Assembly (NCBI RefSeq): GCF_036227565.1 | Contig: NZ_CP109460.1 | Span: forward strand, 8,122,001-8,186,000 | Length of the DNA: 64,000 nucleotides | Reading direction: 5' to 3' | From: Streptomyces sp. NBC_01454 | GTDB lineage: Bacteria > Actinomycetota > Actinomycetes > Streptomycetales > Streptomycetaceae | Shown: in pieces, positions 961 to 16,472 of the stretch | Layout: every line of letters starts with the position of its first letter | Numbering within the stretch: position 1 is the first letter of the stretch | The notes under the pieces: model-generated | The model's database searches: none | What the model saw: the letters and a program-made list of their open reading frames with translations, nothing else | What the model was told of the DNA's origin: nothing | Program-made: the position numbers and the translations under genes

Positions 961-2448
961 TCAGGGGGTGGGGAGTCCGGGACCCGCGCAGTGCACATCG
1001 GCGCGCGGCACGCTGCCGTCGACGAGGTAGGCCGCCGCCGCCTCGTCCACACAGCGGTTGCCCCGGCTGGCGAACACCCCGTGGGAGTAGTCGTCGTGCA
1101 GGGTGACCAGGCGGGAGCCGGGGAGCCGCCGCTGGAGTGCCCGGGCGCCGTCGAGGGGCGTGACGGGGTCGTGCGCGGAGGCGATCAGCAGGACCGGCGG
1201 GGCCTGGGGACTGCCGAGCGGTGTGCGGTGGGCGGGCCGGTGGTGCCAGTACGCGCACACCGCGGCCTCCACCCCGGTGAGCACCGGCTGCGGGGCGAGC
1301 CGCCGCATCCGACGTAGATCGGCCGGCACGCGGGACGGCGTGGGCGGTGGTCCGTCAGCGCACTTGACGGTGCGGTTGGCGGCTTCGTACGTACGTGAGG
1401 CGGCGCCGTCGAAGGGTTCCGCCGGGCGCAGCGGCCCCACGCTGCCGTCGCGCAGCCAGGCGCGCAGGCCCTCGGCGAGACCCGCCCAGCGCTCGGTACG
1501 GCCCAGCGCCCGGTACACGGCGCGGTCGAACTCCGCCGGGCCGAAGCCGTGCACGGGCCGGCGCGCGAGACCGGCACGCACCCGCAGATACGCGGCCCGG
1601 ACCGCCGCCCCGTCGGTGCCGAGCCCGAAGCGGTCCGCGGCGCGGGCCGCCCACGCGAAGAACACCGCCCGCTGGCGCACCAGCGCCCGGGCCTGGCGGA
1701 GATCGAAGTCGTACCACTCCCAGGGGCCGACGACGCTGTCCAGCACCATCCGGCCGACCCGGTGGGGGAACCGGGCGGCGTAGGCGGCCCCGAGGTAACT
1801 GCCGTACGAGACACCGAGGAAGCCGATGCGGCGCTCGCCGAGCGCCGCCCGTATCGCGTCCATGTCGCGGGCGGTCTCCGTGGTCGACAGGAACGGCAGG
1901 GCGTCCTTGACGCCCCGGGCGCAGTCGTCCGCGGTCCGCCGCAGCCCGTCGAGCGCGGCCCGCTCGGCCGTGCGCCCCACCGGCACGGGATCCGGCCCCG
2001 GACCGTCGAAGAGGCCGCCCATCGGCCCGCAGTCCGCGGGTGCGCTGCGGCCCGTACCGCGGGGATCGAAGCCGATCACGTCGTACGAACGGCGCACCCG
2101 CTCGGGCAGTTTGGCGCGCTTGGTCACGGCGTAGGCCAGGCCCGGGCCGCCGGGCCCGCCCGGGTTGACCAGCAGGACGCCGCGCCGTTCGGACGCCGGT
2201 CCGGAGGCGCGGACGCGGGATATCGCGAGCCGGAGCTGCTTGCCGTCCGGATGGTCGCGGTCCAACGGGACGTACAGGTGGGCGCATTCGACGCGGTCGG
2301 GGGCGGGCGGGGCCGGGACGGAGTCCGGGCAGGCGCCGAAGTGGAGGGCAGGGGCCGGGGGAGCGGCCTGGACCGGGGCGGCCGGGAGGACGGCGGCGGT
2401 GACCGCGAGGGCGCAGAGCAGGCCGGTGCGGCGCGGGGAGGACATCAC
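961..2448 (-). CDS. Secreted alpha/beta hydrolase, tripeptidyl aminopeptidase (SlpD/SlpE/TAP) family
   Basis: This 495-residue exported serine hydrolase has an N-terminal Sec signal peptide (residues 1-28: two arginines, an LLCALAVTAAVL core, and an AQA-like cleavage region). The oxyanion-loop motif VNPGGPGGPG lies near residue 95 and the nucleophile elbow GVSYGS places the catalytic Ser near residue 214. A C-terminal TAP-like domain contributes the Asp (SAHDPVTP) and His (DYSHGVF). Family members remove tripeptides from protein N-termini, including in mycelial protein turnover. The gene diverges from the metallophore-like operon, and a seven-copy heptamer repeat lies directly upstream of its start. 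The Zur-like box in the shared intergenic region could affect it too, which is inference. Confidence 0.9.
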   Translation of the reverse strand: MMSSPRRTGLLCALAVTAAVLPAAPVQAAPPAPALHFGACPDSVPAPPAPDRVECAHLYVPLDRDHPDGKQLRLAISRVRASGPASERRGVLLVNPGGPGGPGLAYAVTKRAKLPERVRRSYDVIGFDPRGTGRSAPADCGPMGGLFDGPGPDPVPVGRTAERAALDGLRRTADDCARGVKDALPFLSTTETARDMDAIRAALGERRIGFLGVSYGSYLGAAYAARFPHRVGRMVLDSVVGPWEWYDFDLRQARALVRQRAVFFAWAARAADRFGLGTDGAAVRAAYLRVRAGLARRPVHGFGPAEFDRAVYRALGRTERWAGLAEGLRAWLRDGSVGPLRPAEPFDGAASRTYEAANRTVKCADGPPPTPSRVPADLRRMRRLAPQPVLTGVEAAVCAYWHHRPAHRTPLGSPQAPPVLLIASAHDPVTPLDGARALQRRLPGSRLVTLHDDYSHGVFASRGNRCVDEAAAAYLVDGSVPRADVHCAGPGLPTP

Positions 2449-2460: not shown

Positions 2461-2509
2461 CGGAGGGCGGAGGGCGGAGGGCGGAGGGCGGAGGGCGAAG
2501 GGCGGAGGG
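2461..2509. repeat. Heptamer tandem repeat, seven copies of CGGAGGG
   Basis: Five perfect CGGAGGG units, one CGAAGGG and a final CGGAGGG run head to tail with no spacers. They occupy the 5' leader of the minus-strand peptidase gene, 13 bases upstream of its ATG. Read on the minus strand the unit can be phased as CTCCGCC, the same heptamer family as the repeat at 23174-23228. Function is unknown. Slipped-strand length variation or a leader element are possibilities. Confidence 0.9.
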
Positions 2510-2529
2510 GAGGGCGACTGCCATGAGAG

Positions 2530-2559
2530 TTGCTGTTGAAAATGATTATCGTTTACAGT
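2530..2559 (+). promoter_or_regulatory. Probable promoter with Zur-like operator
   Basis: The box TGAAAATGATTATCG (2537-2551) differs at two positions from the 15-bp palindrome I recall as the Streptomyces Zur box (TGAAAATGATTTTCA). It can also be read as a 9-1-9 imperfect dyad at 2538-2556, as in other Fur-family sites. A candidate -35 TTGCTG (2530-2535) and -10 TACAGT (2554-2559) flank it at 18-bp spacing, so a bound repressor would cover the promoter spacer. It drives the operon whose first start is the GTG at 2656. This is the only AT-rich pocket for kilobases. The consensus comparison is from memory, and binding is inferred. Confidence 0.65.
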
Positions 2560-2655
2560 GTGGCTCGGTCAAGCCCGCCGGTCCCCACCCGGGCTCCGCC
2601 GCCCCTGGGCAACCACCACCACACGCCCGCACACCGCCCGCGACGAAGGGACACC

Positions 2656-3912
2656 GTGGCTCATCTGCTGATGGTCGAAAGCTGGGTCGGAGCGATGAGC
2701 AGACTGCTCCCGCGCGCGATCCGGGAAGCCGGACACGAGTTCACCTTCCTCACCCGCGACCTGCACCACTACCTGCGCACCGCGCCCGAAGGCACCGCCC
2801 ACCCGCTGCTCGGCGCCCGCCATGTGCTGACCGCCGACACCAACGACCCCGACACCCTGCTGCCGTACCTGGAGCGGCTGCACCCGGCCCTCGGCTTCGA
2901 CGGGGTGCTCACGTCCTGCGACTACTACCTCGCGACGGCCGCGCGGATAGCGAGCCGCCTCCACCTGCCGGGACCCGCGCCCACCGCGGTCGAGAACGCC
3001 TGCCGCAAGGACGTCACCCGGCAACTGCTCGCCGCCGCCGGGCTGCCCGGCCCGCGCTTCGCCCTCTGCGCGGACCGCTCCGAGGCCGCCACCGCGGCGG
3101 CCGCGATCGGATACCCGCTGGTGTTCAAGCCCGTCGACCTGTGCGCCGGAATGTTCGTCCGGCGCATCGACGACAAGGCGGAGCTGGTCCGTGCCTGCCG
3201 CGCGCTGGACGACTTCCCCGTCAACGCGCGCGGCCAGCGCCGGACACCCGTGTTCCTCCTCGAAGAGCTGCTGCACGGACCCGAAGTGAGCGTCGAGACC
3301 GTGACGTTCGGCGGCCGCACCCAGGTCGTCGGGGTGACCGACAAGAGCGTCGGCGGGGCGCCCGCCTTCATCGAGACCGGCCATATGTTCCCTGCCGCGC
3401 TCCCCGAGGACGACGCGGCAGCGGCCGGGGAGACCGCCTGCCGGGCACTCGCGGCGCTCGGGCTCGACGGCGTCGTGGCCCACACCGAGATCAAGCTGAC
3501 GCCCGACGGGCCGCGCCTGGTCGAGGTCAACCCACGGCCCGCCGGCAACCGCATCACCGAACTCGTCCGTCACGTCGGCGGCATCGACCTCGCCGCCGCC
3601 GCGGTGGACCTGGCCCTGGGGCGGCGGCCCGATCTGCGGACCCGGGACACCGGGCTGCGCAGTGCCGCGATCGGCTTCCTCGTGCCGCGGACCGCGGGTG
3701 TGCTGGAAGCAATCGACGGCGACGACCTCGTACGACGGGCGCCGGATGTGCTCGAACTCCACCTCGCCGAGCCCGGCCATACCGTCAAGGAGGCCGGCAG
3801 CAACAACGCGTACCTGGGCCACGTGATGGCCGGCGACGCCGACGGCCCGGGCGCCCGACGGCGGGTCGAGGCCCTGCTGTCCGGGCTGCGCCCGCGGGTG
3901 GTGACCCGATGA
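2656..3912 (+). CDS. ATP-grasp amino acid or peptide ligase
   Basis: This 418-residue cytoplasmic enzyme is an ATP-grasp carboxylate-amine ligase, a class that joins an amino acid or acid to an amine through an acyl-phosphate. Visible features are the ATP-binding lysine strand YPLVFKPVDLCAGM (about residues 155-168), the EELLHGPEVSVE segment, and the Mg-binding HTEIKLTPDGPRLVEVNPRPAGN signature near residues 277-300 (shown here only as family-typical E-x-N-x-R-x-x-G). The GTG at 2656 was chosen because a GAAGGGA ribosome site precedes it and upstream in-frame residues are low-complexity. It is the first gene of the operon behind the Zur-like box and overlaps the next gene by ATGA. It probably makes the amide bond of the putative metallophore. 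Confidence 0.85.
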   Translation: MAHLLMVESWVGAMSRLLPRAIREAGHEFTFLTRDLHHYLRTAPEGTAHPLLGARHVLTADTNDPDTLLPYLERLHPALGFDGVLTSCDYYLATAARIASRLHLPGPAPTAVENACRKDVTRQLLAAAGLPGPRFALCADRSEAATAAAAIGYPLVFKPVDLCAGMFVRRIDDKAELVRACRALDDFPVNARGQRRTPVFLLEELLHGPEVSVETVTFGGRTQVVGVTDKSVGGAPAFIETGHMFPAALPEDDAAAAGETACRALAALGLDGVVAHTEIKLTPDGPRLVEVNPRPAGNRITELVRHVGGIDLAAAAVDLALGRRPDLRTRDTGLRSAAIGFLVPRTAGVLEAIDGDDLVRRAPDVLELHLAEPGHTVKEAGSNNAYLGHVMAGDADGPGARRRVEALLSGLRPRVVTR

Positions 3913-4775
3913 CCCCGGCCCTCACCCGCACCCCCGCCCTCCCCACCCCGGCACCGGCCGCCTCGTACGACGACCTGGTGGCCCGCGTCCTCGACGGGGA
4001 GTTCGGCCCCGACCCGCGCACCCGGCGGATCGCCGTGGCCTTCAGCACCCGGCAGGCCGTACGCCACGAGGGCCGCGGCGGCGGCTACCGCAACGAAGTG
4101 CTGAGCCTGCGGCTGGGCGCGGCGGTCGGCTCCTGCGCCGTGGAGCCCGGCGCGTTGCCGGACGCCGCGGTCGAGGACTGCGTGGGCGCCGACATCGCCC
4201 GCCTCCTGGCACACCCGCTGCACCCCGTACGGGTGGCCGCGCTGGACGCCTATCTGACGCAGGTGCTGCCGCACACGCCCGCGAACGGTGCGCGGCCCTG
4301 GTCCCTGCCGGCCGGGTCGTCCCTGCGGAAGTCGCGGGCCCGGGCACGGGCCGTCACCGGACTGCTCGACGCCCCGCCCGGCGCACGGGTGCTGGTGGTC
4401 GGCGTGGTCAACTCGCTGCTGGAAGCCCTGCGCACCCGCGGCCTGTCGTACGTGCCCTGCGACCTCAAGGGCGGCACGACGGAGTGGGGCGAGGCCATCC
4501 GCACCGATGCGCTCGCTGAGCTGACGCGCTGCGACGCGGTGCTCGCCTCCGGAATGACCCTGGGCAACGGCAGCTTCGAGCCGCTGCGGGAAGCGGCACT
4601 GCGGCACGGAACGCCGCTGGTGATGTTCGCGCAGACCGGGAGCGCGGTGCTGCCGCGCTTCCTCGGCTCCGGCGTGAGCGCCGTGTGTGCCGAGCCCTAC
4701 CCGTTCTTCTGGCTCGACGGAGGGCCCGGCAGCATCCACCGCTACCGCGACCGGGCACCCGGAGCCGCCCGGTGA
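3909..4775 (+). CDS. DUF364/DUF4213-type Rossmann protein (putative heavy-metal chelation family)
   Basis: A 288-residue protein with a family-like N-terminal half (VAFSTRQAVRHEGRGGGYRNE) and a C-terminal Rossmann-like half. In the latter, RVLVVGVVNSLLEAL (near 155-170), DLKGGTTEWGEA, and CDAVLASGMTLGNGSFEPL followed by PLVMFAQTGSAVLP match the layout of DUF364 proteins, described as putative heavy-metal chelation domains and often found in metal-related clusters. The ATG overlaps the ATP-grasp stop codon, so translation is coupled. Its reaction is unknown. The N-G-S/T motif near residue 235 and the glycine loop suggest it binds a nucleotide or amino-acid-like ligand. Position within the operon suggests a role in making or handling the chelator. 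Confidence 0.65.
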   Translation: MTPALTRTPALPTPAPAASYDDLVARVLDGEFGPDPRTRRIAVAFSTRQAVRHEGRGGGYRNEVLSLRLGAAVGSCAVEPGALPDAAVEDCVGADIARLLAHPLHPVRVAALDAYLTQVLPHTPANGARPWSLPAGSSLRKSRARARAVTGLLDAPPGARVLVVGVVNSLLEALRTRGLSYVPCDLKGGTTEWGEAIRTDALAELTRCDAVLASGMTLGNGSFEPLREAALRHGTPLVMFAQTGSAVLPRFLGSGVSAVCAEPYPFFWLDGGPGSIHRYRDRAPGAAR

Positions 4776-5935
4776 CCACGGCCGTCCTCCCCACCGGCAA
4801 CCGGGCGCTGCTCGGCCTGCTCGGCCGCACCCCGCTCGCCCACGTCACCACCGACCTGCCCTGCCCCCACCCCGGCTTCTGGGCCAAGCTCGAAGGGCTC
4901 GGCGCGGGCGGCATGAAGGCACGCGCCGCGGTGGCCATGCTCCTCGGCGCCAGGGAACGCGGTGAACTGCCGCCCGGCGCCCCCGTGGTGGAGTCCACCT
5001 CCGGCACCCTCGGCATCGGACTGGCCTTCGCGGGCCAGGCGCTGGGACACCCGGTCGTGCTGGTCGGCGACACCGAACTGGAGCCGTCGATGCGGCGCCT
5101 GCTGCGGACCTACGGCGTCCGCCTCGAACTGGTCGACCGGCCGGCGGCCGAGGGCGGCTGGCAGGCGGCGCGGCTGGCGCGGCTGCGCCGGCTGCTGACC
5201 GAGCTGCCCGGTGCCTACTGGCCCGACCAGTACAACAACCCCGACAACGTGGCCGGTTACGCCTCCCTCGCCGCCGAACTGGCCGGCGCTCTGGACCACC
5301 TCGACATCCTGGTGTGCAGCGTCGGCACCGGCGGCCACAGCGCGGGCGTCATCGGCCCGCTGCGCCGGCACTGGCCGCGCCTGCGGCTGATCGGCGTGGA
5401 CGCCACCGGCTCGACCATCTTCGGCCAGCCCGCCAGGACCCGGCTCATGCGCGGCCTCGGCAGCAGCATCCACCCGCGCAACGTCGCCTATGACGCGTTC
5501 GACGAGGTGCACTGGGTCGGCCCCGCCGAATCCGCCGACGCCTGCCGCCGGCTGGCCGCCGGCAACTTCGTCAGCGGCGGCTGGAGCACCGGCGCGGCCG
5601 CCCTCGTCGCCGCCTGGGCCGCCCGCGTCCACCCCGGAGCCGTGGTCGCCACGGTCTTCCCCGACGGGCCGCAGCGCTACCTCCACAGCGTCTACGACGA
5701 CGACTTCACCGCCGCGCACGGCCTGGACCTGGCCCGTGCCGCCACCCGCCCCGTCGAGATCCCGCACCCGCGGGCCGCCGAGGCGACCGGCTGGACCCGC
5801 TGCCGGACCGTCACCGACCCGCTCGCCCCGCGCGGCGACCCGCCCGCCCCCACCGGCCGGCGCCCGGCGTCCGAGCCCACCGCCACCGCCCCGCCCCACC
5901 CCGCCCGCCGAACCCCCCGGAAAGACACACCGTGA
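4772..5935 (+). CDS. CysK/SbnA-like PLP-dependent beta-replacement enzyme
   Basis: This 387-residue fold-type II PLP enzyme resembles cysteine synthase. The PLP lysine is in GGMKARAAVAM (about residue 50), the substrate loop is ESTSGTLGIGLA, and the phosphate-binding loop is SVGTGGHSAGV (about 185-195). In canonical enzymes the substrate loop reads TSGNTG. Here Asn and Thr are replaced (TSGTLG), which argues for a substrate other than O-acetylserine. Relatives such as SbnA build 2,3-diaminopropionate for metallophores. A Pro-rich C-terminal tail of about 55 residues (beyond residue 330) is extra. The GTG start overlaps the preceding stop (GTGA). The likely role is supplying a non-protein amino acid to the ATP-grasp ligase. 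Confidence 0.8.
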   Translation: MTTAVLPTGNRALLGLLGRTPLAHVTTDLPCPHPGFWAKLEGLGAGGMKARAAVAMLLGARERGELPPGAPVVESTSGTLGIGLAFAGQALGHPVVLVGDTELEPSMRRLLRTYGVRLELVDRPAAEGGWQAARLARLRRLLTELPGAYWPDQYNNPDNVAGYASLAAELAGALDHLDILVCSVGTGGHSAGVIGPLRRHWPRLRLIGVDATGSTIFGQPARTRLMRGLGSSIHPRNVAYDAFDEVHWVGPAESADACRRLAAGNFVSGGWSTGAAALVAAWAARVHPGAVVATVFPDGPQRYLHSVYDDDFTAAHGLDLARAATRPVEIPHPRAAEATGWTRCRTVTDPLAPRGDPPAPTGRRPASEPTATAPPHPARRTPRKDTP

Positions 5936-7023
5936 AGGTCCGCCACCGCACCGTACGACTCCAACTGGCCGAGCCCCTGCGGATCTCCCGCGCCACGATG
6001 GCCGCCCGCGACGCCGTCTGGCTCGCCGTCGAGCACCAAGGACACCGCGGCTACGGAGAGGCCGTCAGCAGTACCTACTACGGACTGGACGCCGGCAGCA
6101 TCCGCCGCCTGCTGAGCGACACCGCCGACGCCCTCACCCGCTGCCGCACCCCCGAGAGCGCACTCGACGCCCTGCGGGCCGGTGCACTGCCCGCGCCCGG
6201 CACGCCGCCGGCGGTGACCGCGGCGGTGGAATCCGCCCTGCTCGACCTCGTCGGCAAGCGCGCCGGCCGCCCCATGCACCAGCTGCTCGGCACCCTCGCC
6301 GCGCCGAGCGCCACCACCGCCCGCACCCTCGGCATCACCACGCCCCGCGCGGGGGCCGAACAGGCCGCCCGGCTGGCCCGGCAGGGCTTTACCGTCCTCA
6401 AGGTCAAGGTCGGCCTCCCCGACCCCGAGGACGACCTGGACCGGGTCCTCGCGATCCGCAACGCCGCCCCGCACGCCCGGCTGCTGCTCGACCCCAACGG
6501 CGCCTGGACCCCCGCCCTGGCCGATGCGCTGCTGCCCCGCTACGCGGGCCTCGGGGTCGAGGCTGTCGAGCAGCCGCTCGCCCCGGGCGACCCCGAGGCG
6601 CTGGCCTTGCTCGCCGCACGCTCACCGCTGCCCGTCATCGCCGACGAGGACGCGGTCGGCGAGGAGGACGCCCGGCGGCTGGCCGGACGGGTGCACGGCA
6701 TCAACGTCAAGCTCGCCAAGTGCGGCGGCGTCACCGCGGCGCTGCGTATCGCCGAGTTGCTCGCCGGGAGCGGCACCGCGCTGATGCTCGGCTGCCTGAC
6801 CGCCAGCACCCTCGGCCTCGCGCCCGCCGTCCACCTCGCCGACCGGGCCCGCTGGACCGACCTCGACGGCCATCTGCTGCTCGCCCACGACCCCTGGACC
6901 GGCATCGGCGGCACGGACGGCACCGTACGCGCCGGCCGGCTGCCGGGCCTCGGCATCCGCCCCGTCCGCCGCCCCCGGCCGCACCGGGCACCCGTACACC
7001 ACGAAGCGGAGGCACCGCGGTGA
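5932..7023 (+). CDS. Enolase-superfamily dipeptide epimerase
   Basis: A 363-residue mandelate-racemase-group enzyme. It has an N-terminal capping domain, then a barrel with the KxK catalytic pair (LKVKVG, about residue 162), metal ligands in LLDPNGAW (Asp), VEQPLAP (Glu) and IADEDAV (Asp), and the opposite-face Lys in NVKLAKCGG. The DLDG motif in WTDLDGHLLLAHDP near residue 310 is the hallmark of dipeptide epimerases, where it binds the substrate alpha-amino group. Such enzymes epimerise the C-terminal residue of a dipeptide. The presence of this gene next to an ATP-grasp ligase suggests that the pathway product contains a dipeptide-like unit with a D-centre. It is coupled to its neighbours by GTGA overlaps at both ends. 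Confidence 0.85.
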   Translation: MKVRHRTVRLQLAEPLRISRATMAARDAVWLAVEHQGHRGYGEAVSSTYYGLDAGSIRRLLSDTADALTRCRTPESALDALRAGALPAPGTPPAVTAAVESALLDLVGKRAGRPMHQLLGTLAAPSATTARTLGITTPRAGAEQAARLARQGFTVLKVKVGLPDPEDDLDRVLAIRNAAPHARLLLDPNGAWTPALADALLPRYAGLGVEAVEQPLAPGDPEALALLAARSPLPVIADEDAVGEEDARRLAGRVHGINVKLAKCGGVTAALRIAELLAGSGTALMLGCLTASTLGLAPAVHLADRARWTDLDGHLLLAHDPWTGIGGTDGTVRAGRLPGLGIRPVRRPRPHRAPVHHEAEAPR

Positions 7024-9110
7024 AGACCTGGCACGAGCTGCGCCGCTTCCCGCTCGCCATCCGCCTGCTGCTGATCAACCAGTTCGGCGTCAACACCGGC
7101 TTCTATCTGCTCATTCCCTACCTCGCGGTGCACCTGGGGGAGGACCTGGGAATGTCCGCCGCGGTCGTCGGCATCGTGCTCGGCGTCCGCAACCTCAGCC
7201 AGCAGGGACTCTTCCTCATCGGCGGCTCGGCGTCCGACCGGCTGGGCGCCCGCGGCGTCATCATCGCCGGCTGCGCGCTGCGGACCGTCGGCTTCGGGCT
7301 GTTCGCGCTCGGCGACGGCCTGGCCGTCCTGCTCGCCGCGTCCGTCCTCAGCGGGCTGGCCGGCGCCCTGTTCAACCCCGCCGTGCGCGCCTACCTCGCG
7401 CAGCGGGCGGGCAGCCGGCAGGCCGAGGCCTTCGCCCTCTTCAACGTCTTCGCCACCACCGGCGCCCTGGTCGGGCCGCTGCTCGGCAGCGCCCTGCTGC
7501 TCGTCGACTTCCGCGTCGCCGCACTCACCGCCGCCGCGCTCTTCGCCCTGCTCACCGTCGCCCAGGCGCTGGTGCTGCCGGCCTGCGAGGTGCCCCCGGC
7601 GGCGGGCAGTGTCCTCGCCGACTGGCGCGAGGTCCTCGGTAACCGCGTGTTCGTCGCCTTCGCGATGGCCATGGTCGGCATGTTCACGCTGCAGAACCAG
7701 CTGTACCTGCTGCTGCCCGACGGCGCGCGGCGGGCCACCGGCTGGGACGGCGCGGCCGGCCTGGTCTTCCTCGTCGGCACCCTCGCCAACCTCGCGCTCC
7801 AGATGCGCCTCACCCGGGCGCTCAAGGAACGCGGCGAGCGGACACGGTGGATCGCCGCAGGGCTGGGGCTGATGGGCCTGGCCTTCGTCCCGCCGATGGC
7901 CGTCGCCGGACTGGAGGCGCCGCCCGGCGGTCCGGGTGCCGCCGTGCTGCGAGTCCTTCCGGTACTGGCCGGCGCGCTGCTGCTCTACCTGGGCGTCATG
8001 ATCGCCCAGCCGTTCGTGATGGAGCTGATCCCCGCCTTCGGCCGCGCCGGACTCACCGGCACCTACTTCGGGTTGTTCTACGTCGTCTCCGGTGTCGCCG
8101 CGGCAGTGGGAAACGCCGTCGTCGGCTGGGCCATGGACGCCGGGTCACGGATGCGGACGCCATGGCTGCCATGGGCGTGCTGTCTGGCCTTCGGACTGCT
8201 CTCCGCGGCCGGCGTCGCCTGGCTCCACCGGCTGCGGGCCCTGCCGGGGCGGACCACCGGGGAGGCGGAGCCGCCCGCGCCGGACGAGGCGACGGCGACG
8301 GACCGCACCACAGCCCCCACCAACGGCGCCAACCTGCTCACCGACAACCCGGAGCTGTACGAGGCACGCTTCCCCGACGCCGAACGACTCGCCGGCCGCT
8401 GGGCCGAGGACTGCCTGCGCCGCCACCGTGCGGGCCGGCGCGTCCTGGACCTCGGCTGCGGCACCGGCCGCGACGCCGCGCACCTGCACCGGGCCGGCCG
8501 CCGGGTGGTCGGCGCCGACCTCTCCACCGCGATGCTGACATACGCCCGCACCCACCACCCGGGCCCGGAGTACCTACGGGCCGACCTGCGCACCTTCGAC
8601 CTGCCCGCGGCACCCTTCGACGCCGTCGTCTGCCTGGACAGCGCCCTGCTCTACTGCCACACCAACGCCGAACTCGACGGCTTCCTCGCCTCCTGCCGAC
8701 GCGGCCTGGTGCCCGGCGGGCTGCTCGTCGCCGAAATGCGCAACGGCGCCTTCTTCCTCGGCCGGACGGAACTGCTCGACGCCCCGGCCGTCCACGGCTT
8801 CACCTGGCAGGGCACCGCCTACACCTCCACCACCACCCTGTCCGTCGACCGCACGGCCCAGCTCCTGCGCCGCACCCGACGCTGGACCGCCGACGACGGC
8901 TCCCCGCCCCACGCGCAGGACTCCGCCTGGCGGTTGCTCTTCCCGCAGGAACTGCGCCAAGTCCTCGCCGCAAACGGCTTCCAGGTCCTCGAACTGCACG
9001 ACGGACCGGGACCGCGCACGGAACCCGCCTGGCAGGACGGCACCGCTCCGGGAACCTCCGCCGACGGTGACCGGCTCCACCTCGTCGCCCGGCTGACCCG
9101 GAGCGACTGA
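7020..9110 (+). CDS. MFS exporter fused to class I SAM methyltransferase
   Basis: One open frame of 696 codons joins two whole domains. Residues 1-410 are a twelve-helix major facilitator (typical GGSASDRLGARGVII loop after helix 2, GALFNPAVRAYLAQ before helix 5). A Pro/Thr/Ala-rich linker (about 415-440) follows. Residues 440-696 are a class I methyltransferase with SAM motif I VLDLGCGTGRDAAHL, the acidic post-motif GADLST, and VVCLDSALLYCHTN. No in-frame ATG or GTG is apparent at the junction, so the fusion looks genuine. The MFS half corresponds by context to metallophore exporters such as CntE. The methyltransferase could N- or O-methylate the product at the membrane before export. The GTG start overlaps the epimerase stop. 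Confidence 0.8.
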   Translation: MKTWHELRRFPLAIRLLLINQFGVNTGFYLLIPYLAVHLGEDLGMSAAVVGIVLGVRNLSQQGLFLIGGSASDRLGARGVIIAGCALRTVGFGLFALGDGLAVLLAASVLSGLAGALFNPAVRAYLAQRAGSRQAEAFALFNVFATTGALVGPLLGSALLLVDFRVAALTAAALFALLTVAQALVLPACEVPPAAGSVLADWREVLGNRVFVAFAMAMVGMFTLQNQLYLLLPDGARRATGWDGAAGLVFLVGTLANLALQMRLTRALKERGERTRWIAAGLGLMGLAFVPPMAVAGLEAPPGGPGAAVLRVLPVLAGALLLYLGVMIAQPFVMELIPAFGRAGLTGTYFGLFYVVSGVAAAVGNAVVGWAMDAGSRMRTPWLPWACCLAFGLLSAAGVAWLHRLRALPGRTTGEAEPPAPDEATATDRTTAPTNGANLLTDNPELYEARFPDAERLAGRWAEDCLRRHRAGRRVLDLGCGTGRDAAHLHRAGRRVVGADLSTAMLTYARTHHPGPEYLRADLRTFDLPAAPFDAVVCLDSALLYCHTNAELDGFLASCRRGLVPGGLLVAEMRNGAFFLGRTELLDAPAVHGFTWQGTAYTSTTTLSVDRTAQLLRRTRRWTADDGSPPHAQDSAWRLLFPQELRQVLAANGFQVLELHDGPGPRTEPAWQDGTAPGTSADGDRLHLVARLTRSD

Positions 9111-9161
9111 CACCCCGCCATCGCGCCCTCCCCTCCCTCCGCCCACACCAAGGAATCCGCC

Positions 9162-10745
9162 ATGTACGACGGCCCCGTTCCCGACCCCCGCTTCCCCGGC
9201 CTGCGCCGCCGCGGCTTCCTCGCCGCCGGGGGCGCCGCCGGCCTCGGCGCACTCGCCCTCGCCGGATGCACCGGCTCCGCTGCCTCCGGTGACGCCGCGG
9301 GCGGCGGCCGGCCCCGGCGCGGCGGCACGCTGCGCGCCGCCTTCGCCGGCGGCGGCGCCGACGAGACCCTCGACCCGCACCGGGCCAACCTGTTCGCCGA
9401 TGTCGCCCGTGCCAAGGCGCTGTTCGACAAGCTCGCCGACTTCGGCGCCGACCTCTCCGCCCGGCCCCGGCTCGCCGCGTCCTGGGAGCCGAACGCCGGC
9501 CTCGACCGCTGGACGGTGCGCCTGCGCAAGGCGTCCTTCCACCACGGCAAGCCGGTCACCGCCCGGGACGTGCTCTACAGCTACCGGCGCATCGCCGACC
9601 CCCGGCAGGGCTTCCGCGCCAAGGCCTCGCTGGAGCCCCTCGACCTCACCGCCAGCCGGGCCGTCGACGAGCGGACCGTCGAATTCGTCCTGAAGCGCCC
9701 CACCGCCGAATTCCCCCACCTGCTGGCCGCGTTCGGCGCCTATGTCGTCCCCGACGGCACCAAGGACTTCACCGCACCGGTCGGCAGCGGCCCGTTCCGC
9801 TTCGTGTCCTTCACCCCCGGACGGTCCGCCGTCTTCCGGCGCCACGAGGACTACTGGGACGGCCCGCCCCACCTGGAGCAACTGGAGTTCCTGGTCGCCA
9901 ACGAGGAGTCCGCGCGGCTCAACGCCCTCCTCGGCGGCCAGGTCGAATACGCCCATGAGCTCACCCCGACGACCGCCCGCGCCCACGAGGGCAAGGGACA
10001 GATCGAGATCGTACGGCTGCGCAACAGCGCGATGCAGTCGTTCGCCATGAAGACCGACCGGCCGCCGTTCGACGACCGCCGGGTACGCGAGGCCTTCTTC
10101 CTCCTCGCCGACCGCGAGGAGTTGGTCGCGGGCGCGCTCTCCGGCGCCGGCGAGATCGGCAACGACCTGTTCGGGAAGGGCTACGAGTTCTACGCGGACG
10201 GCCTGCCGCAGCGCCGACCCGACCTCGACCGGGCCCGGCACCTGCTCAAACAGGCCGGCGCCGACGGCCTCCACGTCACCCTGGACACCTCGCCCGTCGC
10301 CGCCGGATTCACCGAGGCCGCCGCCATCTTCCGCGACCAGGCCGCACAGGCCGGAGTGCGGGTGAAGGTGGCGATGGGCAGCAAGGACAGCTACTGGCAG
10401 GACACCCTCGACTCCGGGACCCTGTGCTCCTACCGCTCCGGCGCGATGCCCCTCTCCTCGCACTTCTCCCAGCGGCTGCTGAGCGCCTCCACCACCAACG
10501 CCACCCAATGGCGGCACAAGGACTTCGACGCGCTCTACCAGCAGGCCCAGTCCACCCGGAACACCACGGACCGGGCCGCCGTCTACGCGCGGATGCAGCG
10601 CCGGCTGTACGCCGAGGGCGGCTTTTTGGTCTGGGGCTTCGCCGACTGGATCCTGGGCACCGCCCGCACCGTGCGCGGCGTGGACCGCAAGGCCCCCGCC
10701 AACACGCTCGACTGGGCCCGCTTCGACCGGGTGTGGCTCACATGA
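9162..10745 (+). CDS. Oligopeptide/nickel-type ABC substrate-binding lipoprotein
   Basis: This 527-residue SBP_bac_5 family protein is the extracytoplasmic receptor of the importer encoded by the next three genes. It begins with a twin-arginine-type lipoprotein signal, LRRRGFLAAGG followed by a LALAGC lipobox near residue 36, so it is anchored to the outer face of the membrane. Family landmarks are DETLDPHRANLFADV (near 65-80), SWEPNAGLDRWTVRLRKA and GSGPFRFVSF. CntA/NikA-type members bind metal-chelator complexes and OppA-type members bind peptides. Context favours a metal complex. It starts at ATG 9162 after AAGGAA, 51 bases past the fusion gene and in the same orientation. Confidence 0.9.
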   Translation: MYDGPVPDPRFPGLRRRGFLAAGGAAGLGALALAGCTGSAASGDAAGGGRPRRGGTLRAAFAGGGADETLDPHRANLFADVARAKALFDKLADFGADLSARPRLAASWEPNAGLDRWTVRLRKASFHHGKPVTARDVLYSYRRIADPRQGFRAKASLEPLDLTASRAVDERTVEFVLKRPTAEFPHLLAAFGAYVVPDGTKDFTAPVGSGPFRFVSFTPGRSAVFRRHEDYWDGPPHLEQLEFLVANEESARLNALLGGQVEYAHELTPTTARAHEGKGQIEIVRLRNSAMQSFAMKTDRPPFDDRRVREAFFLLADREELVAGALSGAGEIGNDLFGKGYEFYADGLPQRRPDLDRARHLLKQAGADGLHVTLDTSPVAAGFTEAAAIFRDQAAQAGVRVKVAMGSKDSYWQDTLDSGTLCSYRSGAMPLSSHFSQRLLSASTTNATQWRHKDFDALYQQAQSTRNTTDRAAVYARMQRRLYAEGGFLVWGFADWILGTARTVRGVDRKAPANTLDWARFDRVWLT

Positions 10746-11695
10746 CCGGCCTGCGGCCCTGGATGGCCCGGCGGCTGCTGCTCGGCGCCGGGCAGACCGT
10801 CGCCGTCGTGCTGCTCGTCTTCGCCCTCACCGAGGCGCTGCCCGGCGACGCCGCGGTGGCGCTCGCCGGCGACCAGCCCGACCCCGCACGGATCGCGGCC
10901 CTGCGCGAGACGATGCACCTGGACCGGCCCGCCGCCGAACGCCTCGGGGACTGGGCGGCCGGGCTGCTGCACGGCGATCTCGGCACCTCACCGGTCTCCG
11001 GCCGGCCGGTCAGCTCCTACCTCGCCGACGGGTTCGGCCCGACCCTGCTGCTCGCCACCCTCACCCTGCTGCTGCTCGTCCCCCTCGCCGGCGGCCTCGG
11101 CGTCCTGGCCGCCCGGTACGAAGGCCGGCTCGTGGACCGTCTCATCAGCGCCGTGACCCTGGGCGTCTACGCGGTACCGGAGTTCGCCCTCGGGGTGCTG
11201 CTGGTCACGGTCGTCGCCCTCCGCCTGGGGTGGCTGCCGCCGACCGCCGTCGGCCACGGCGACGACCTGACGGCCCACCCCGCGGTGCTGGTGCTGCCCG
11301 TGCTGGTGCTGCTGTCCCGGCCGGTGTGCTCGCTGGCCCGGCTGGTGCGGGCCGGCATGATCGACGCACTGGCCGCACCCCACATCGCACACGCCCGCTG
11401 CTACGGCATCCCCGGCGCCCGCATCCGCTACGCCCATGCCCTGCCCAACGCCCTGGCACCCGCCGCCCAGCAGCTCGCCCGCACCGTCGACTGGCTGCTG
11501 TGCGGAGTCATCGTCGTGGAGGCCCTCTTCGTGATCCCCGGACTGGGCACGGTCCTGATGAACGCCGTGGCGGAACGCGATGTCCCCGTCCTGCAAGGTC
11601 TCGCGGTCGTGTTCGCCGTCACCGCCGTCCTCCTCAACCTCGCCGCGGACACCGTCATGTACCGCTGTACGCCACGGGCCGGGGTGGCGGCATGA
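10742..11695 (+). CDS. ABC importer permease, DppB/NikB/CntB type
   Basis: A 317-residue inner-membrane permease with about six helices. It has the family N-terminus (RRLLLGAGQTVAVVLLVFALTEALPGD), the loop DPARIAALRETMHLDRP, and the EAA cytoplasmic loop centred on HARCYGIPGARIRYAHALPNAL (cited for position, residues 220-241), which docks the ATPase. The start ATG overlaps the stop of the binding-protein gene. It pairs with the DppC-like permease encoded next to form the translocation path. Confidence 0.9.
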   Translation: MTGLRPWMARRLLLGAGQTVAVVLLVFALTEALPGDAAVALAGDQPDPARIAALRETMHLDRPAAERLGDWAAGLLHGDLGTSPVSGRPVSSYLADGFGPTLLLATLTLLLLVPLAGGLGVLAARYEGRLVDRLISAVTLGVYAVPEFALGVLLVTVVALRLGWLPPTAVGHGDDLTAHPAVLVLPVLVLLSRPVCSLARLVRAGMIDALAAPHIAHARCYGIPGARIRYAHALPNALAPAAQQLARTVDWLLCGVIVVEALFVIPGLGTVLMNAVAERDVPVLQGLAVVFAVTAVLLNLAADTVMYRCTPRAGVAA

Positions 11696-12573
11696 GGCGG
11701 CGGCGCTGGGCCTGTGCCCTCCTCATCCTCGCCGTACCCCTGCTGCTGGCCCTGCTCGGCCCGCTGTTCGCGGGGGAGCCCGGACCGCGCGCCGCCTCCT
11801 TCACCGCCGGCGGCGGACACGGCGTCGGCACCGACTTCGTCGGCCGGGACGTCTGGCGTCAGGTGCTGCTCGGCGGACGCCCGGTGGTCCTGGCCGCACT
11901 CGCGGCGACGGCGCTGGCCTACGCGGTGGCGCTGCCGCTGGGCCTGTGCGCCGCGCTGACCCACCGCCGGTGGCTGGACGAGCTGCTGACACGGCCGCTG
12001 GACGTGCTGCTCGCGGTGCCGTCACTGCTGCTCATCCTGCTGGTGGCGGCGGTCATCCGGCCCGGCGCCACGGGCCTCGCGCTGCTGGTGGCCCTGGTCA
12101 ACATCCCCGATGCCGCCCGGGCCGTCCGGGCCGCCGCCGCCGAGGCGGCCTCGCGTCCCGTGGTCGAGGCGCTGCGTATGCAGGGCGAGTCCTGGGCACG
12201 CACGGCCCTGGGCTGTGTGGGCCGTGCGGCGCTGCGCACCCTGGCGGCCGACGCCGGGGTGCGGCTGACCGGTGTGCTCTACCTGGTCGCCACGGCCGCC
12301 TTCCTAGGCGTCGGCGCCGCACCGGACGCCGCCGACTGGGCGGTGATGGTCGACCGCAACCGCACGGGCATGTTCGTCCAGCCCTGGGCCGTCGCCCTGC
12401 CCGCCCTGCTGATCGTGGCACTGACCATGGGCACCAACCTGCTCTTCGACGCCGCCCTCACCGCACGCGCCCCCGGCGCCGGACCGGGCCGGGAGCAACC
12501 GCCCGCCCCCGCCCACCCGCCCGCCGACCGAACGTCCCCCGGTCCGAAGCGAATCGAGAAGGACAAGCCGTGA
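11692..12573 (+). CDS. ABC importer permease, DppC/NikC/CntC type
   Basis: This 293-residue second permease has an N-terminal helix, the HGVGTDFVGRDVWRQVLLGG motif typical of DppC-type subunits, and an EAA-like loop around VEALRMQGESWARTALG. About five to six helices are visible. A proline-rich, charged C-terminal tail of about 35 residues is longer than usual. ATG overlaps the upstream stop (ATGA) and the next gene starts at the GTGA overlap, so all importer genes are tightly coupled. Confidence 0.88.
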   Translation: MRRRRWACALLILAVPLLLALLGPLFAGEPGPRAASFTAGGGHGVGTDFVGRDVWRQVLLGGRPVVLAALAATALAYAVALPLGLCAALTHRRWLDELLTRPLDVLLAVPSLLLILLVAAVIRPGATGLALLVALVNIPDAARAVRAAAAEAASRPVVEALRMQGESWARTALGCVGRAALRTLAADAGVRLTGVLYLVATAAFLGVGAAPDAADWAVMVDRNRTGMFVQPWAVALPALLIVALTMGTNLLFDAALTARAPGAGPGREQPPAPAHPPADRTSPGPKRIEKDKP

Positions 12574-14153
12574 CAGTGAACACCGCGCACGAGACCGCCC
12601 GGATCCAGGATCTGCGGGTCGAGGTCGGCGGCCGCGTCCTCGTCGACGGGGTGAGCCTGCGGCTGGTACCCGGCCGGATCACCGCACTGATCGGTGCCTC
12701 CGGCAGCGGCAAGACCACCACGGGACGCGCCCTCCTCCGCGAGTACCCGCCCGGCGCCACGGTCACCGGCGAGGTGGACGTCCCCGACACCCCCGTCGGC
12801 TACGTCCCCCAGCACCCCGCCACCGCCCTCAACCCCGCCCGGCCGGTGGCCGCGCTCCTCCAGGACATCGCCCGCACCCAGGTACGCCATCTGCCGCGCC
12901 GCGCCCGCCGCCCCGCCCTCCGCCACCGGGTGCTGGGCGCGCTCGACCGGGCCCAACTACCCGACGGCGAGGCCCTGCTGCACCGCTACCCCCACCAGCT
13001 CTCCGGCGGCCAACAGCAGCGGGTGGTCCTCGCCCAGGCCCTGCTGACCGGCGCCACGACGATCGTCGCGGACGAACCGACCACCGGCCAGGACGCCCTG
13101 ACGAAGCGGGAGATCGCCGGCCAACTGGCCGCCGTGGCCCGGCAGGGCATCGCGGTCCTGCTGCTCAGCCACGACCTGGACGTCGTACGCTCCCTCGCCG
13201 ACGAGGTCCATGTCCTGCACGCCGGACGCCTCGTGGAATCCGGCCCGCCGGAGCGGCTCTGGCACGCCCCGCAGCACCCCTGGACCCTTGCCCTCCTCAC
13301 CCCGGCCGACCCCACCGGAGCCGCCGCGACCGCCGCCCTCCCCGCCCCGGACACCGCGCTCCCCGCCCCGGACACCGTCCTCCACGTGCGCGGCCTGACC
13401 GCCCACCACGGCACCTCCCGCGTCCTGCAGGTCCCCGAACTCCGGCTCGCACCCGGCTGCCTGGCCGTCGTGGGCCGCTCGGGCAGCGGCAAGACCACCC
13501 TCGGCCGCTGCCTGGCCGGACTCCACCGGACCCACGACGGACAGGTCCTGCTCGACGGTGCCGCCCTGCCCCGCAGCCTCCGCGACCGTACCCGCGCCCA
13601 ACTCGCCGCGGTCCAGTACGTTTTCCAGGACGCCCGGGCCTCGTTCGACGCACACCGCACCGTCCTCGACCAGGTGGCCCGCAGTGCCGTCCGGCTGCGC
13701 CACTGTCCCCGGGCCGAAGCCACGGCCGACGCCGTCCGCACCCTGCGCTCCCTCGGCCTCACCAGCGACCTCGTACGCCGCACCCCGGCGGAGCTGTCCG
13801 GCGGCGAACTGCAGCGCGCCGCCCTGGCCCGCGCCCTGCTGGCCCGCCCCCGGGTGCTGATCTGCGACGAAATCACCTCCGGCCTGGACTCCCTCACCCG
13901 GCGGAGCCTGCTCACCCTCCTGGAGGGCCTGCTGCGGGCCGACCCGGACCTGTGCCTGGTCCTCATCACCCATGACCGCGACACCGCGGCCCTCGCCACC
14001 GCCCTCGCCGTCCTCGACGCCGGCCGGCTCGTCGAGCAGGGCCCGGCCGCCCGGCTGCGCACCGCGCCCCGACACGCCCTCACCGCCGGGCTGTTGCAGA
14101 CCGCGACGCCCGTCCCGCAGCCACCCTTGGAAAACACCGACCCGCACCGGTAG
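12570..14153 (+). CDS. Twin-domain ABC ATPase of the peptide/metallophore importer
   Basis: This 527-residue protein contains two complete ATP-binding domains, corresponding to the separate D and F subunits of Opp/Nik/Cnt systems. Domain 1 (about 1-250) has Walker A GASGSGKTTTG, signature LSGGQQQRVVLAQ and Walker B TTIVADEPTTG. Domain 2 (about 275-515) has Walker A GRSGSGKTTLG, signature LSGGELQRAALARA and Walker B VLICDEITSGLDS. In domain 2 the usual DEPTSALD is replaced by DEITSGLD. Start may be GTG 12570 (overlapping the permease stop) or GTG 12576. This is the last gene of the operon. The next gene is convergent, 24 bases away. Confidence 0.9.
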   Translation: MTVNTAHETARIQDLRVEVGGRVLVDGVSLRLVPGRITALIGASGSGKTTTGRALLREYPPGATVTGEVDVPDTPVGYVPQHPATALNPARPVAALLQDIARTQVRHLPRRARRPALRHRVLGALDRAQLPDGEALLHRYPHQLSGGQQQRVVLAQALLTGATTIVADEPTTGQDALTKREIAGQLAAVARQGIAVLLLSHDLDVVRSLADEVHVLHAGRLVESGPPERLWHAPQHPWTLALLTPADPTGAAATAALPAPDTALPAPDTVLHVRGLTAHHGTSRVLQVPELRLAPGCLAVVGRSGSGKTTLGRCLAGLHRTHDGQVLLDGAALPRSLRDRTRAQLAAVQYVFQDARASFDAHRTVLDQVARSAVRLRHCPRAEATADAVRTLRSLGLTSDLVRRTPAELSGGELQRAALARALLARPRVLICDEITSGLDSLTRRSLLTLLEGLLRADPDLCLVLITHDRDTAALATALAVLDAGRLVEQGPAARLRTAPRHALTAGLLQTATPVPQPPLENTDPHR

Positions 14154-14177: not shown

Positions 14178-15467
14178 CTACGCAGGCGCCACGTCCACCA
14201 GCCGCAACGGCAGCGACTTCAGCCCGTGAATGAAGTTCGACACCAGCCGCCGCGGCGGCCCGGCCACCGCCAGGGCGGGGACCAGGCGGCAGGTCTCCTC
14301 GTACAGCACCCGCAACTGCAGCCGGGCGAGGTGGGCGCCCAGGCAGACGTGCGGGCCGTCGCCGAAGGAGACATGAGGATTGGGGGAGCGGGTCAGGTCC
14401 AGCCGGTGCGGGGCGGCGAAGACCCGCTCGTCGAAGTTCGCCGCACCGTGAAAGACCACCACCTTGTCCCCGGCGCGGACGGCACACCCGGCCAGCTCGG
14501 TGTCGTACGCCGCGGTCCGGCGGAAGCTGAGCACCGGTGGATGCCAGCGCAGCAGCTCCTCCACCGCCGCCGGCATGCCCAGTGCCCCGCTGCGCAGCCC
14601 GCGGTAGGCATCCGGGCGCCGGGCCAGGGCCAGCAGTCCGCCGGGAGCCGCGCTGCGGACGGTGTCGTTGCCCGCGATGGTCAGCAGGAAGAAGAACATC
14701 TCCAGCTCGGGCACGGCCAGTTCCTCGTCCGAGGCGAGCGTGGTCATCACGTCGTCGCCCGGATGCCGCCGCTTGTGGGCGGCCAGCTCCCGCGCGAAAG
14801 TGAACATGTCCTGCAGCATCGCGGGGGAGCGGGGGTCGGCGGGCCGCCCGTCCGGACCGGCCTGGGCCGGGGCCGCCTCGTCCGGGTCCTGGTAGCCGAT
14901 GACGCGCCGGGTCCAGTCCAGCAGCAGCCCGCGCTCAGTGGCCGGCACCCCCAGCAGATCGGTGAGGTTGAGCAGCGCGAAGTCGTCGGTGACGGCACCG
15001 ACGAGGTCGCACACCCCGTTGCCGTCGCGCGCCGTGTCGACCGCCGCGGTCAGCAGCGCACGGGCCCGACCGCGCACCACCGCCCCGAACCGCTCGACCC
15101 GGCCGCGGGTGAACGCACGGCTGACCGCGCGCCGCAGCCGGCCGTGGTCCGGGGGATCCTGATTGAGCATCATGCGGCGGATGAAGGGCAGATCCGCCGG
15201 GTCCGGATCCCGGATCTGGGTGGCGCCCAGGCAGGAGGAGAAGATGCGGGCATCCTTCAGCACCCGTACGACGTCCTCGTGGCGGGTGACCGCCCAGAAG
15301 CCGGGCCCGGCGGGCCAGCCGAGCACCTCGTGCTCCTCCTGCCAGGCCACCGGATGCCGGTCGCGCAGGAACCGGTACGCCGCGTGCGGCAGACCGTCCG
15401 CGTAACCCCGCGGGTCGAACACGTCCGGCACCCGAGGCTCCGCGGCATCGGCGACGGGCGTGGTCAT
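14178..15467 (-). CDS. Cytochrome P450
   Basis: A 429-residue soluble bacterial P450. The I-helix oxygen-activation motif is AGNDTVRSA, the ExxR motif is in EELLRWH, and the haem-binding loop is FGDGPHVCLGAH with the axial Cys near residue 380. LNQDPPDHGRLRRAVSRAF is the usual C-helix region. The overall look is that of the CYP125/CYP124-like group acting on hydrophobic substrates, but the substrate cannot be deduced. Its ATG overlaps the stop codon of the upstream alpha/beta hydrolase, so the two form a coupled pair. No ferredoxin gene is adjacent. Confidence 0.9.
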   Translation of the reverse strand: MTTPVADAAEPRVPDVFDPRGYADGLPHAAYRFLRDRHPVAWQEEHEVLGWPAGPGFWAVTRHEDVVRVLKDARIFSSCLGATQIRDPDPADLPFIRRMMLNQDPPDHGRLRRAVSRAFTRGRVERFGAVVRGRARALLTAAVDTARDGNGVCDLVGAVTDDFALLNLTDLLGVPATERGLLLDWTRRVIGYQDPDEAAPAQAGPDGRPADPRSPAMLQDMFTFARELAAHKRRHPGDDVMTTLASDEELAVPELEMFFFLLTIAGNDTVRSAAPGGLLALARRPDAYRGLRSGALGMPAAVEELLRWHPPVLSFRRTAAYDTELAGCAVRAGDKVVVFHGAANFDERVFAAPHRLDLTRSPNPHVSFGDGPHVCLGAHLARLQLRVLYEETCRLVPALAVAGPPRRLVSNFIHGLKSLPLRLVDVAPA

Positions 15468-16258: not shown

Positions 16259-16472
16259 TCCAGACGTGTGGCGATACGTGCCGACGGCCGACGGCCACGC
16301 CCGTCCACACTGGCCATAACCTCCCCGCCCTGCAAGAGCGCCACGGCCCGGTCGTGCGCCCCCGGCTGGCGGCCCGTCCGCTGAACCCGGCCGAACCTGA
16401 CGTGATCTCAGCAGCCGGGACGAGCCCCACCCGCTCTTGACCCACCCCTGCACCCAGCGTGACAGTGCGCTG
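16259..16472. promoter_or_regulatory. Divergent intergenic region
   Basis: These 214 bases separate the hydrolase-P450 pair from the MHS-type transporter and must hold both promoters. I see no clear sigma-70 hexamers or strong palindrome in it. Confidence 0.4.

Follow-up and report, generated by a model that had tools for sequence, protein, structure and literature searches.

Few chemistries are known for small molecules that scavenge zinc and are made without an NRPS. The nearest precedent for the locus analyzed here is the EDDS/EDHA (aes) family, likened to it indirectly, through published descriptions. Both products are described as NRPS independent; [S,S]-EDDS of Amycolatopsis japonica is placed under Zur control (PMC9252823, PMC4993170), and the EDHA siderophore of Streptomyces, encoded by aes genes, is reported to be iron responsive. 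In S. scabiei, the EDHA cluster is reported to span 11 kb, from scab_5231 to scab_5311 (PMC8914351), and EDHA has also been reported in Corynebacterium, Nocardia, and Burkholderia (PMC11888242, PMC10702961). Published clusters for opine-like zincophores are described with Opp-type or FecCD-type importers; the staphylopine and pseudopaline (cnt) systems share with our locus a small ligand, an MFS exporter, such an importer, and a link to zinc (PMC7438024). Coelibactin of S. coelicolor is likewise a Zur-controlled streptomycete zincophore, but it is an NRPS product, whereas the operon described below has no NRPS domain.

We analyzed a 64,000-nucleotide stretch of a Streptomyces genome (the window). 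Judged from its sequence, a run of nine genes (g1 to g9) is likely to be a Zur-controlled, NRPS-independent zinc-metallophore operon, with which this Streptomyces probably makes, exports, and takes back a small metal-binding molecule. Among the matches listed in keyword searches of the open-access literature, no published description of the nine-gene set was found.

Operon organization and conservation

As the initial annotation had claimed, the nine genes run from 2656 to 14153 with 4-bp overlaps at every junction but one (Table 1). From g1 to g9, the junctions are ATGA, GTGA, GTGA, GTGA, a 51-bp gap (9111 to 9161, between g5 and g6), ATGA, ATGA, and GTGA, and the sequence supports a single tight transcription unit. 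Pfam domains confirmed the annotated gene content.

Table 1. Features of the nine-gene operon and its promoter region (window positions)
Feature	Position	Strand	Start	Assignment
5' neighbor	961-2445	minus		TAP-like alpha/beta hydrolase
Zur-like operator	2537-2557	.		TGAAAATGATTATCG at 2537-2551 and overlapping opposite-strand site at 2543-2557
g1	2656-3912	+	GTG	ATP-grasp ligase, C-terminal L-amino-acid-ligase domain
g2	3909-4775	+	ATG	DUF364 protein (enolase-N-like and Rossmann-like), proposed biosynthetic enzyme
g3	4772-5935	+	GTG	SbnA-like PLP enzyme; Pfam PALP
g4	5932-7023	+	GTG	Enolase-superfamily enzyme, dipeptide-epimerase type
g5	7020-9110	+	GTG	MFS transporter fused to class I SAM methyltransferase
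g6	9162-10745	+	ATG	Opp/Nik-type substrate-binding protein
g7	10742-11695	+	ATG	Importer permease
g8	11692-12573	+	ATG	Importer permease
g9	12570-14153	+	GTG	Importer ATPase, two ABC domains per chain

Of 297 sampled Streptomycetaceae genomes, 55, our own among them, contain a window-type cluster, a type separated from the second-type loci described below by identity and the presence of g1. The suggested check of gene-set conservation was run: of 56 relatives, 49 have the nine genes in collinear order, and every one has g1 to g4 together. The departures comprise five loci with g1 to g4 only, one with these genes plus the methyltransferase, and one without the importer; export and uptake are therefore not always linked. 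An extension of the cluster to the 3' side was rejected. Among 49 loci, the P450 on that side was matched at 85% in L036 only, apart from two weak matches (27 to 31%), and the gene beyond it was found only in L036.

The presence of a full importer inside the operon in 49 of the 56 relatives bears on whether the product might serve another purpose. Small-peptide antibiotic pathways also feature a ligase, an epimerase, a methyltransferase, and an MFS protein. In one control locus, L310, a similar MFS gene lies beside SbnA- and SbnB-like genes with no Zur box near. Given the conserved importer, it is nevertheless quite improbable that Zur controls a secreted peptide-like product with a role other than metal uptake, such as a metalloenzyme inhibitor made under zinc scarcity, and that the importer serves something else; second-type loci also join the same core to an importer.

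Zur-like operator

The promoter box of the initial annotation was located as TGAAAATGATTATCG, 105 to 119 nt upstream of the g1 start. It agrees, counted by eye, with 10 of the 11 specified positions of the actinobacterial Zur motif published as tGaNNatSatNNtCa (PMC5472717). A matrix derived from 12 distinct znuA boxes and their reverse complements, with no cluster promoters used, scored it at 17.8 bits, a value that none of 100 shuffles of its own promoter equaled. TGAAAATGATTATCG is also the only perfect match in the 9.46-Mb genome to TGAAAAYGATTWTCR, a pattern written to fit the operon box itself. With up to two mismatches, the pattern hit 15 sites and its reversed control 3. The overlapping pair of the window and two boxes of the same kind in the genome's own znuA promoter account for four of the 15, and a fifth precedes a second znuA-like gene.

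Fifty-three of 57 cluster promoters, window included and relatedness ignored, passed the 99% shuffle level of the znuA-only matrix, the exceptions being L172, L188, L347, and L348. This level, 10.98 bits, is the 99th percentile of shuffles of 50 promoters (100 each) and was then applied to all 57; 12 of 1,120 random 250-nt pieces from the same loci reach it. Together with the gene order in 49 of 56 relatives, these promoters lend sequence support to the claim of Zur control, which we regard as well supported. Upon zinc scarcity, Zur would leave the operator and the operon would be expressed.

Iron control was not supported. With a consensus that we take to be that of DmdR1 boxes and up to four mismatches allowed, no such box was found near the operon promoter. 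The scan covered 49 of the 56 relatives' loci and detected DmdR1-type boxes in four, in each case over 11 kb beyond the start of g1.

The operator sits between g1 and the divergent peptidase-like/hydrolase gene, which might be a further target. This TAP-like hydrolase gene adjoins g1 divergently in 11 of 56 relatives, and there is one further distant match.

Proteins encoded by g1 to g5

The first protein, g1, matched PF13535 (ATP-grasp_4, 66.6 bits) and PF18603 (LAL_C2, 60.8 bits), and its nearest solved relative is the L-amino acid ligase BL00235 (PDB 3vot, E 2.6e-28). The nearest solved relative of g4, which has the MR_MLE_N and MR_MLE_C domains of Pfam, is a dipeptide epimerase. Its motifs KVK 157, DPN 187, VEQP 212, ADE 237, KLAKCGG 260, and TDLDG 309 presumably provide the catalytic lysines and metal ligands of the barrel, followed by the DxD, as in dipeptide epimerases; loose DxD-type and KxKxG patterns are present in g4 of all 56 relatives. 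A modified dipeptide-like ligand would fit the nearest solved relatives of both proteins.

DUF364 (PF04016) was recognized in g2 at 25.8 bits, above the cut-off of 23, and the family fold was also found, although a search of PDB sequences gave no match up to E 10. The DUF364 structures 3l5o (Dhaf4260) and 3npg (PH1506) are 14% identical to g2. Foldseek matches also included fold-type-I PLP enzymes and enolase-superfamily chains, which we read as shared topology, not function. A DUF364 structure led to a proposed role in making a metal chelator; the available text of that paper names other metals and mentions no SbnA-like partner (PMC2954201).

The protein g3, labeled "CysK-like" earlier, matched PALP; its best NCBIfam model is SbnA (TIGR03945) of the SbnA/SbnB 2,3-diaminopropionate pathway, at 232.4 bits, under the cut-off of 349.95. 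Against PDB 5d87, g3 gave an E value of 2.9e-41. The g5 protein combines an MFS part (residues ~17 to 364; PF07690, 102.8 bits) with a methyltransferase part (residues ~475 to 567; PF13649, 70.1 bits) that carries LDLGCGTG at residue 476.

From these assignments, a pathway can be proposed in which g3 would couple a second amino acid, through its nitrogen, to the beta carbon of an activated serine, for example O-phosphoserine. The resulting unit would be modified or condensed by g2, a further amino acid would be peptide bonded by g1, and one center would be inverted by g4. The methyltransferase half of g5 may then methylate the product, and its MFS half may export the amino- and carboxylate-rich ligand. 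The sequence of enzymatic steps is a guess.

Importer

The set for an Opp/Nik ABC importer is complete, with SBP_bac_5, two BPD_transp_1 permeases, and two ATPase domains, and would return the metal complex to the cell. PF00496 (SBP_bac_5) matched g6 at 249.9 bits, and its N terminus, read by eye, has a twin arginine and a lipobox-like LAGC. For g7, PF00528 (BPD_transp_1) scored 85.9 bits and the best NCBIfam model was Opp2B (210.8 bits, cut-off 350); for g8, the values were 64.7 bits and Opp2C (115.3 bits, cut-off 300). In g9, PF00005 (ABC_tran) matched two stretches at 161.7 bits, with NikD as best NCBIfam model (266.1 bits, cut-off 318.7). All four proteins were under the cut-offs of the NCBIfam nickel models (NikABCDE).

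The likeness to Nik-type importers could indicate nickel or cobalt instead of zinc, and Opp/Nik best models would also suit an operon that imports a peptide or a metal complex and then processes it with its enzymes, particularly as dipeptide epimerases of the enolase superfamily are described as serving murein peptide metabolism (PMC3605383). Such scavenging of peptides or nickel is very improbable: the ligase, the C-N-forming PLP enzyme, and the MFS exporter point to biosynthesis, the operator is of the Zur type, and every importer score is under its family cut-off.

Comparison with known systems and proposed function

Neither CntL (nicotianamine-synthase-like) nor CntM (opine dehydrogenase) had a match in the nine proteins with Pfam and NCBIfam models, and staphylopine-type chemistry was rejected on these grounds. 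SbnB (TIGR03944) was not matched either, and the comparison with coelibactin, made through NRPS domains alone, found none by Pfam. Because the nine genes gave no match to an opine dehydrogenase, a nicotianamine synthase, SbnB, or an NRPS, the operon is not a staphylopine copy, and this earlier statement holds in a cnt comparison made by family models. The metallophore reading of the initial annotation is thus sustained in part, in its Zur control and its exclusion of staphylopine, but not in the CysK-like label, as the SbnA model scores best.

The operon might instead encode a member, perhaps elaborated, of the aminopolycarboxylate family (EDDS, EDHA), with AesA-D homologues among g1 to g5. 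Zur control of EDDS, the absence of an NRPS, and the size of the S. scabiei EDHA cluster, close to that of our operon, speak for this, as does the SbnA-like g3. SbnA-like chemistry would be plausible here and, we presume, equally for aes. The window-type loci have DUF364, the epimerase, the MFS-methyltransferase, and the Opp/Nik importer, which may set them apart from aes. In the genus taken as Corynebacterium, one of those in which EDHA has been reported, DUF364 is all but missing, with a single marginal fragment (E 8.6e-4) among 81 genomes. Of the 30 best SbnA-like loci of this genus, which we infer to be aes loci, 29 have a GGGPRGLWA-type flavoprotein motif nearby; this motif was found in none of the 56 window-type and 80 second-type loci. 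On this indirect evidence, membership in the aminopolycarboxylate family is unlikely. Searches of 394 genomes did not reveal an aes cluster: the SbnA model had a match over cut-off in 41, most matches of the SbnA family being under cut-off and read as ordinary CysK/CBS, and PRK02186 gave nothing over cut-off, mostly ArgH-type parts.

The preferred zincophore reading is supported by a Zur-type operator, a tight unit, and the joint conservation of enzymes, exporter, and importer; by the recurrence of the DUF364 and SbnA-like pair near Zur-like boxes in second-type loci; by the same kind of box in the znuA promoter; and by the lack of iron-type boxes around the operon promoter. The sub-cut-off scores of g3 and the importer proteins count against it. 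Zinc is the most likely metal. The cluster would then predict a new ligand, for whose discovery zinc starvation and zur deletion offer simple switches, and the DUF364 family, so far without an assigned function, would gain a concrete pathway and a regulator.

Second-type loci

We lean slightly toward a broader view, in which DUF364 and a divergent SbnA-like enzyme form the heart of a class of actinobacterial zinc metallophores that is widespread, as yet without a name, Zur controlled, and NRPS independent, with DUF364 forming the chelator. At least three architectures would belong to it: the nine-gene window type with its Opp/Nik importer; a DUF364-SbnA-MFS type that has a FecCD importer and in many cases a small methyltransferase; and a methyltransferase-SbnA-DUF364 type with an Opp-type importer. 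DUF364 would then match the chelator-forming role suggested by the 2010 structure paper (PMC2954201) and perhaps take the place of SbnB.

The second-type loci (L221 to L300, n = 80) resemble the window in the DUF364/SbnA-like pair, present in 78 and mostly accompanied by an MFS gene, and in their Zur-like boxes. They differ in the importer, which is of the FecCD type in 72 (a count that takes any ATPase match, Opp type included), and in that no relatives of g1 or g4 (>45% identity at E 1e-20) were found in the 80. A Zur-like box of at least 18 bits lies within 6.5 kb in 58 of them; these counts rest on mononucleotide shuffles, and as the 13 kb scored make up ~67% of the retrieved sequence, part of the boxes may serve other genes. 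As controls, 30 loci of other SbnA-family genes, each taken with flanks of 1.5 kb, contained no box of at least 14 bits. Among 14 larger loci (12 to 19.5 kb) around other SbnA-like genes, three had such a box: L310 (17.6 bits), L314 (14.5 bits), and L308, where a box of 19.5 bits lies ~0.45 kb before the SbnA-like gene.

Organization of the gene cluster

The nine-gene cluster and its operator are real features of the source genome (9.46 Mb, Streptomyces type; window G000:C1:8122001-8186000), and their components are listed in the table. As described in the initial annotation, seven of the eight gene junctions are 4-bp overlaps (ATGA or GTGA), with a 51-bp gap at the remaining one, g5/g6. The best named DUF364 relative among the matches listed was from Streptomyces kronopolitis (94%).

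The divergent hydrolase gene may use the same operator as g1. It adjoins g1 in 11 of 56 window-type relatives (loci elsewhere with relatives of g1 to g4), so that in most of them the box accompanies g1 alone. Downstream genes showed no conservation across the 49 loci checked, and both members of the P450 and hydrolase pair were kept only in one of these relatives (L036).

Features of the window and of loci fetched for comparison (g1 to g9 assigned by domain scan)
Feature	Position	Strand	Remarks
TAP-like alpha/beta hydrolase	window 961-2445	minus	upstream of g1, divergent
GGAGGGC-type short tandem repeats	window about 2462-2511		between divergent hydrolase and operator
Zur-like box TGAAAATGATTATCG	window 2537-2551		
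Nine genes, g1 to g9	window 2656-14153		co-directional
g1			ATP-grasp ligase with L-amino-acid-ligase C-terminal domain
g2			DUF364
g3			PLP enzyme
g4			enolase-superfamily enzyme
g5			MFS transporter fused to SAM methyltransferase
g6-g9			complete Opp/Nik-type importer, two ATPase domains fused
P450 + alpha/beta hydrolase gene	window 14178-16615	minus	3' of nine genes
Fur-family gene, COG0523-like gene, second znuA-like operon	L112:3731-10295		own genome, about 1.931-1.938 Mb
Fur-family gene	L113:2377-2733		own genome
S14-type ribosomal protein gene	L113:5029-5388		own genome, by eye, 2.3 kb past Fur-family gene
Zur-like site, 19.5 bits	L308:8602-8616		about 0.45 kb 5' of SbnA-like gene; different family, same class
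Third arrangement	L297:2148-12490		Streptomyces flavidovirens
Region with MFS 45% identical to g5 MFS half	L309:7918-10280		beside SbnA-like gene
Region with MFS 61% identical to g5 MFS half	L310:7267-13241		beside SbnA-like gene

Zur-like operator

The operator-like box that had been noted in the promoter proved to be the sole perfect match to TGAAAAYGATTWTCR in a pattern search of its own genome. With up to two mismatches, 15 genome sites were found, versus 3 for the reversed control pattern. Two of the 15 sit at the start of znuA, whose neighbors in an operon-like run are a znuB-like gene and a presumed zur of the Fur family; S. coelicolor znuA is likewise reported to have two Zur boxes, with tGaNNatSatNNtCa as the published motif (PMC5472717). 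Another precedes a second znuA-like gene, identified by eye, with a COG0523-like gene and a further member of the Fur family close by. The L112 region, which has a Zur-like site around 7435, is probably a further zinc regulon. The S14-type ribosomal protein encoded at L113 is perhaps a zinc-independent paralogue.

To avoid circularity, the scoring matrix drew on znuA boxes alone, taken from 30 relatives plus this genome itself. The window box scored 17.8 bits. Conservation of the box in relatives, a check proposed at the outset, was evident: 53 of 57 promoters (56 window-type relatives plus the window) reached at least 10.98 bits, the 99th percentile of 5000 dinucleotide-shuffled promoters, and 48 reached at least 14 bits. 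Among 1120 random 250-nt stretches cut from these loci, some possibly overlapping the promoters, 12 and 9 reached these values, respectively. The promoters under 10.98 bits belong to L172, L188, L347, and L348. Elsewhere in the SbnA family, none of 30 loci with flanks of 1.5 kb had a match of at least 14 bits. Among 14 larger loci that surround further SbnA-like genes, 3 had one (L308, L310, and L314). A scan of 49 window-type loci gave no iron-type box close to the operon promoter. Zur control of the window operon is as firm as sequence alone permits.

Conservation of the nine genes

A search of 297 Streptomycetaceae genomes gave DUF364 relatives in 81, the own genome among them. Split by identity and the presence of g1, 55 of these (own included) are of the window type and 26 carry the second type alone (40 to 47% identity). 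A class-wide search of 394 genomes gave a match in 30 and added two window-type loci from other families (L171 and L172). Up to 20 kb was retrieved around each of the 56 window-type relatives, and collinearity was tested with ten query segments, g5 being split in two. All ten were collinear and on the same strand in 49 relatives. Five others kept g1 to g4 alone (L063, L068, L188, L347, and L348), three of which (L188, L347, and L348) were also under the Zur-box threshold; L187 has g1 to g4 plus the methyltransferase segment, and L351 is without the importer. Since g1 to g4 occur together in 56/56, reduced loci included, they behave as one module. In a codon-position comparison covering g1 to g4 and g6 to g9, third-position differences exceeded second-position differences in all except g9, which showed little contrast over only 504 ungapped codons.

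Comparison with known metallophores

Domain and family scans of the nine proteins yielded no CntL or CntM match, and staphylopine-type chemistry was ruled out on this basis, in agreement with the earlier view that the cluster is no staphylopine copy. It also differs from coelibactin, an NRPS product; the nine proteins gave no match to NRPS domains. The aminopolycarboxylate family offers the closest precedent. Its member EDDS is described as Zur-controlled. For EDHA, an iron response and the genes AesA-D are reported (PMC10702961), its cluster in S. scabiei spans 11 kb (PMC8914351), and Corynebacterium is reported to carry EDHA-like clusters (PMC11888242).

The comparison with aes was indirect, using 81 genomes of a genus taken for Corynebacterium from gene content. 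DUF364 was all but missing, with 1 marginal fragment across the 81. Of these genomes, 41 had SbnA-family matches at E <= 1e-70, none of them over the family cut-off. A GGGPRGLWA-type flavoprotein motif, identified by eye, lay within about 1.5 kb of the SbnA-like gene in 29 of the best 30 loci (L365-L394), and in 0/56 window-type and 0/80 second-type loci. L365-L394 are candidate aes-type loci; if they are aes loci, the window pathway would differ from aes.

Proposed function

Sequence features support a Zur-type operator, a single operon, and conserved enzymes, exporter, and importer, and the cluster probably directs synthesis of a metallophore. Zinc starvation would lead to expression of the operon. 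A C-N-linked amino-acid unit made by g3 would be modified by g2; g1 would add a peptide bond, g4 may perform an inversion step, and g5 would methylate and export the product. The metal complex would return via g6 to g9. Zinc is favored as the metal because of the Zur-type operator; the importer by itself would also allow nickel or cobalt.

Related Zur-linked loci

Second-type loci, whose domain content was scanned in L176, encode a FecCD permease, ATPase, Peripla_BP_2 protein, DUF364, SbnA-like enzyme, MFS transporter, and sometimes a small methyltransferase. Published opine-like zincophore clusters are reported with the same two importer kinds, Opp-type and FecCD-type (PMC7438024). Among 80 named loci (L221-L300, the best 80 of 266), the genes near DUF364 included SbnA-like (78/80), an ATPase match (77/80), FecCD (72/80), binding protein (71/80), MFS (69/80), and methyltransferase (39/80). 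Named genera include Amycolatopsis, Lentzea, Prauserella, Streptomyces, Nocardiopsis, and Rhodococcus. A Zur-like box of at least 18 bits lay within 6.5 kb in 58/80; such matches numbered 79 in 1.55 Mb versus 1 in mononucleotide-shuffled sequence. For the first 29 second-type loci, a box of at least 20 bits was found within 4 kb upstream of DUF364 in 18 and not in 11. Further second-type loci occur at L076-L095 and L173-L181.

In a third arrangement (L251, L278, and L297), genes for a methyltransferase, an SbnA-like enzyme, and DUF364 are accompanied by one for a g6-like binding protein. A Zur-like box scores 30 bits in both L251 and L297; L278 has none of at least 12 bits. L297 also encodes a PhyH-type oxygenase and a Fur-family protein, the latter from a scan of L082, which duplicates that contig. 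It is fairly likely that the DUF364/SbnA-like core defines a broader new class. Relatives of the g5 MFS half also lie beside SbnA-like genes at L309 and L310, the latter with SbnB-like and carbamoyltransferase genes.
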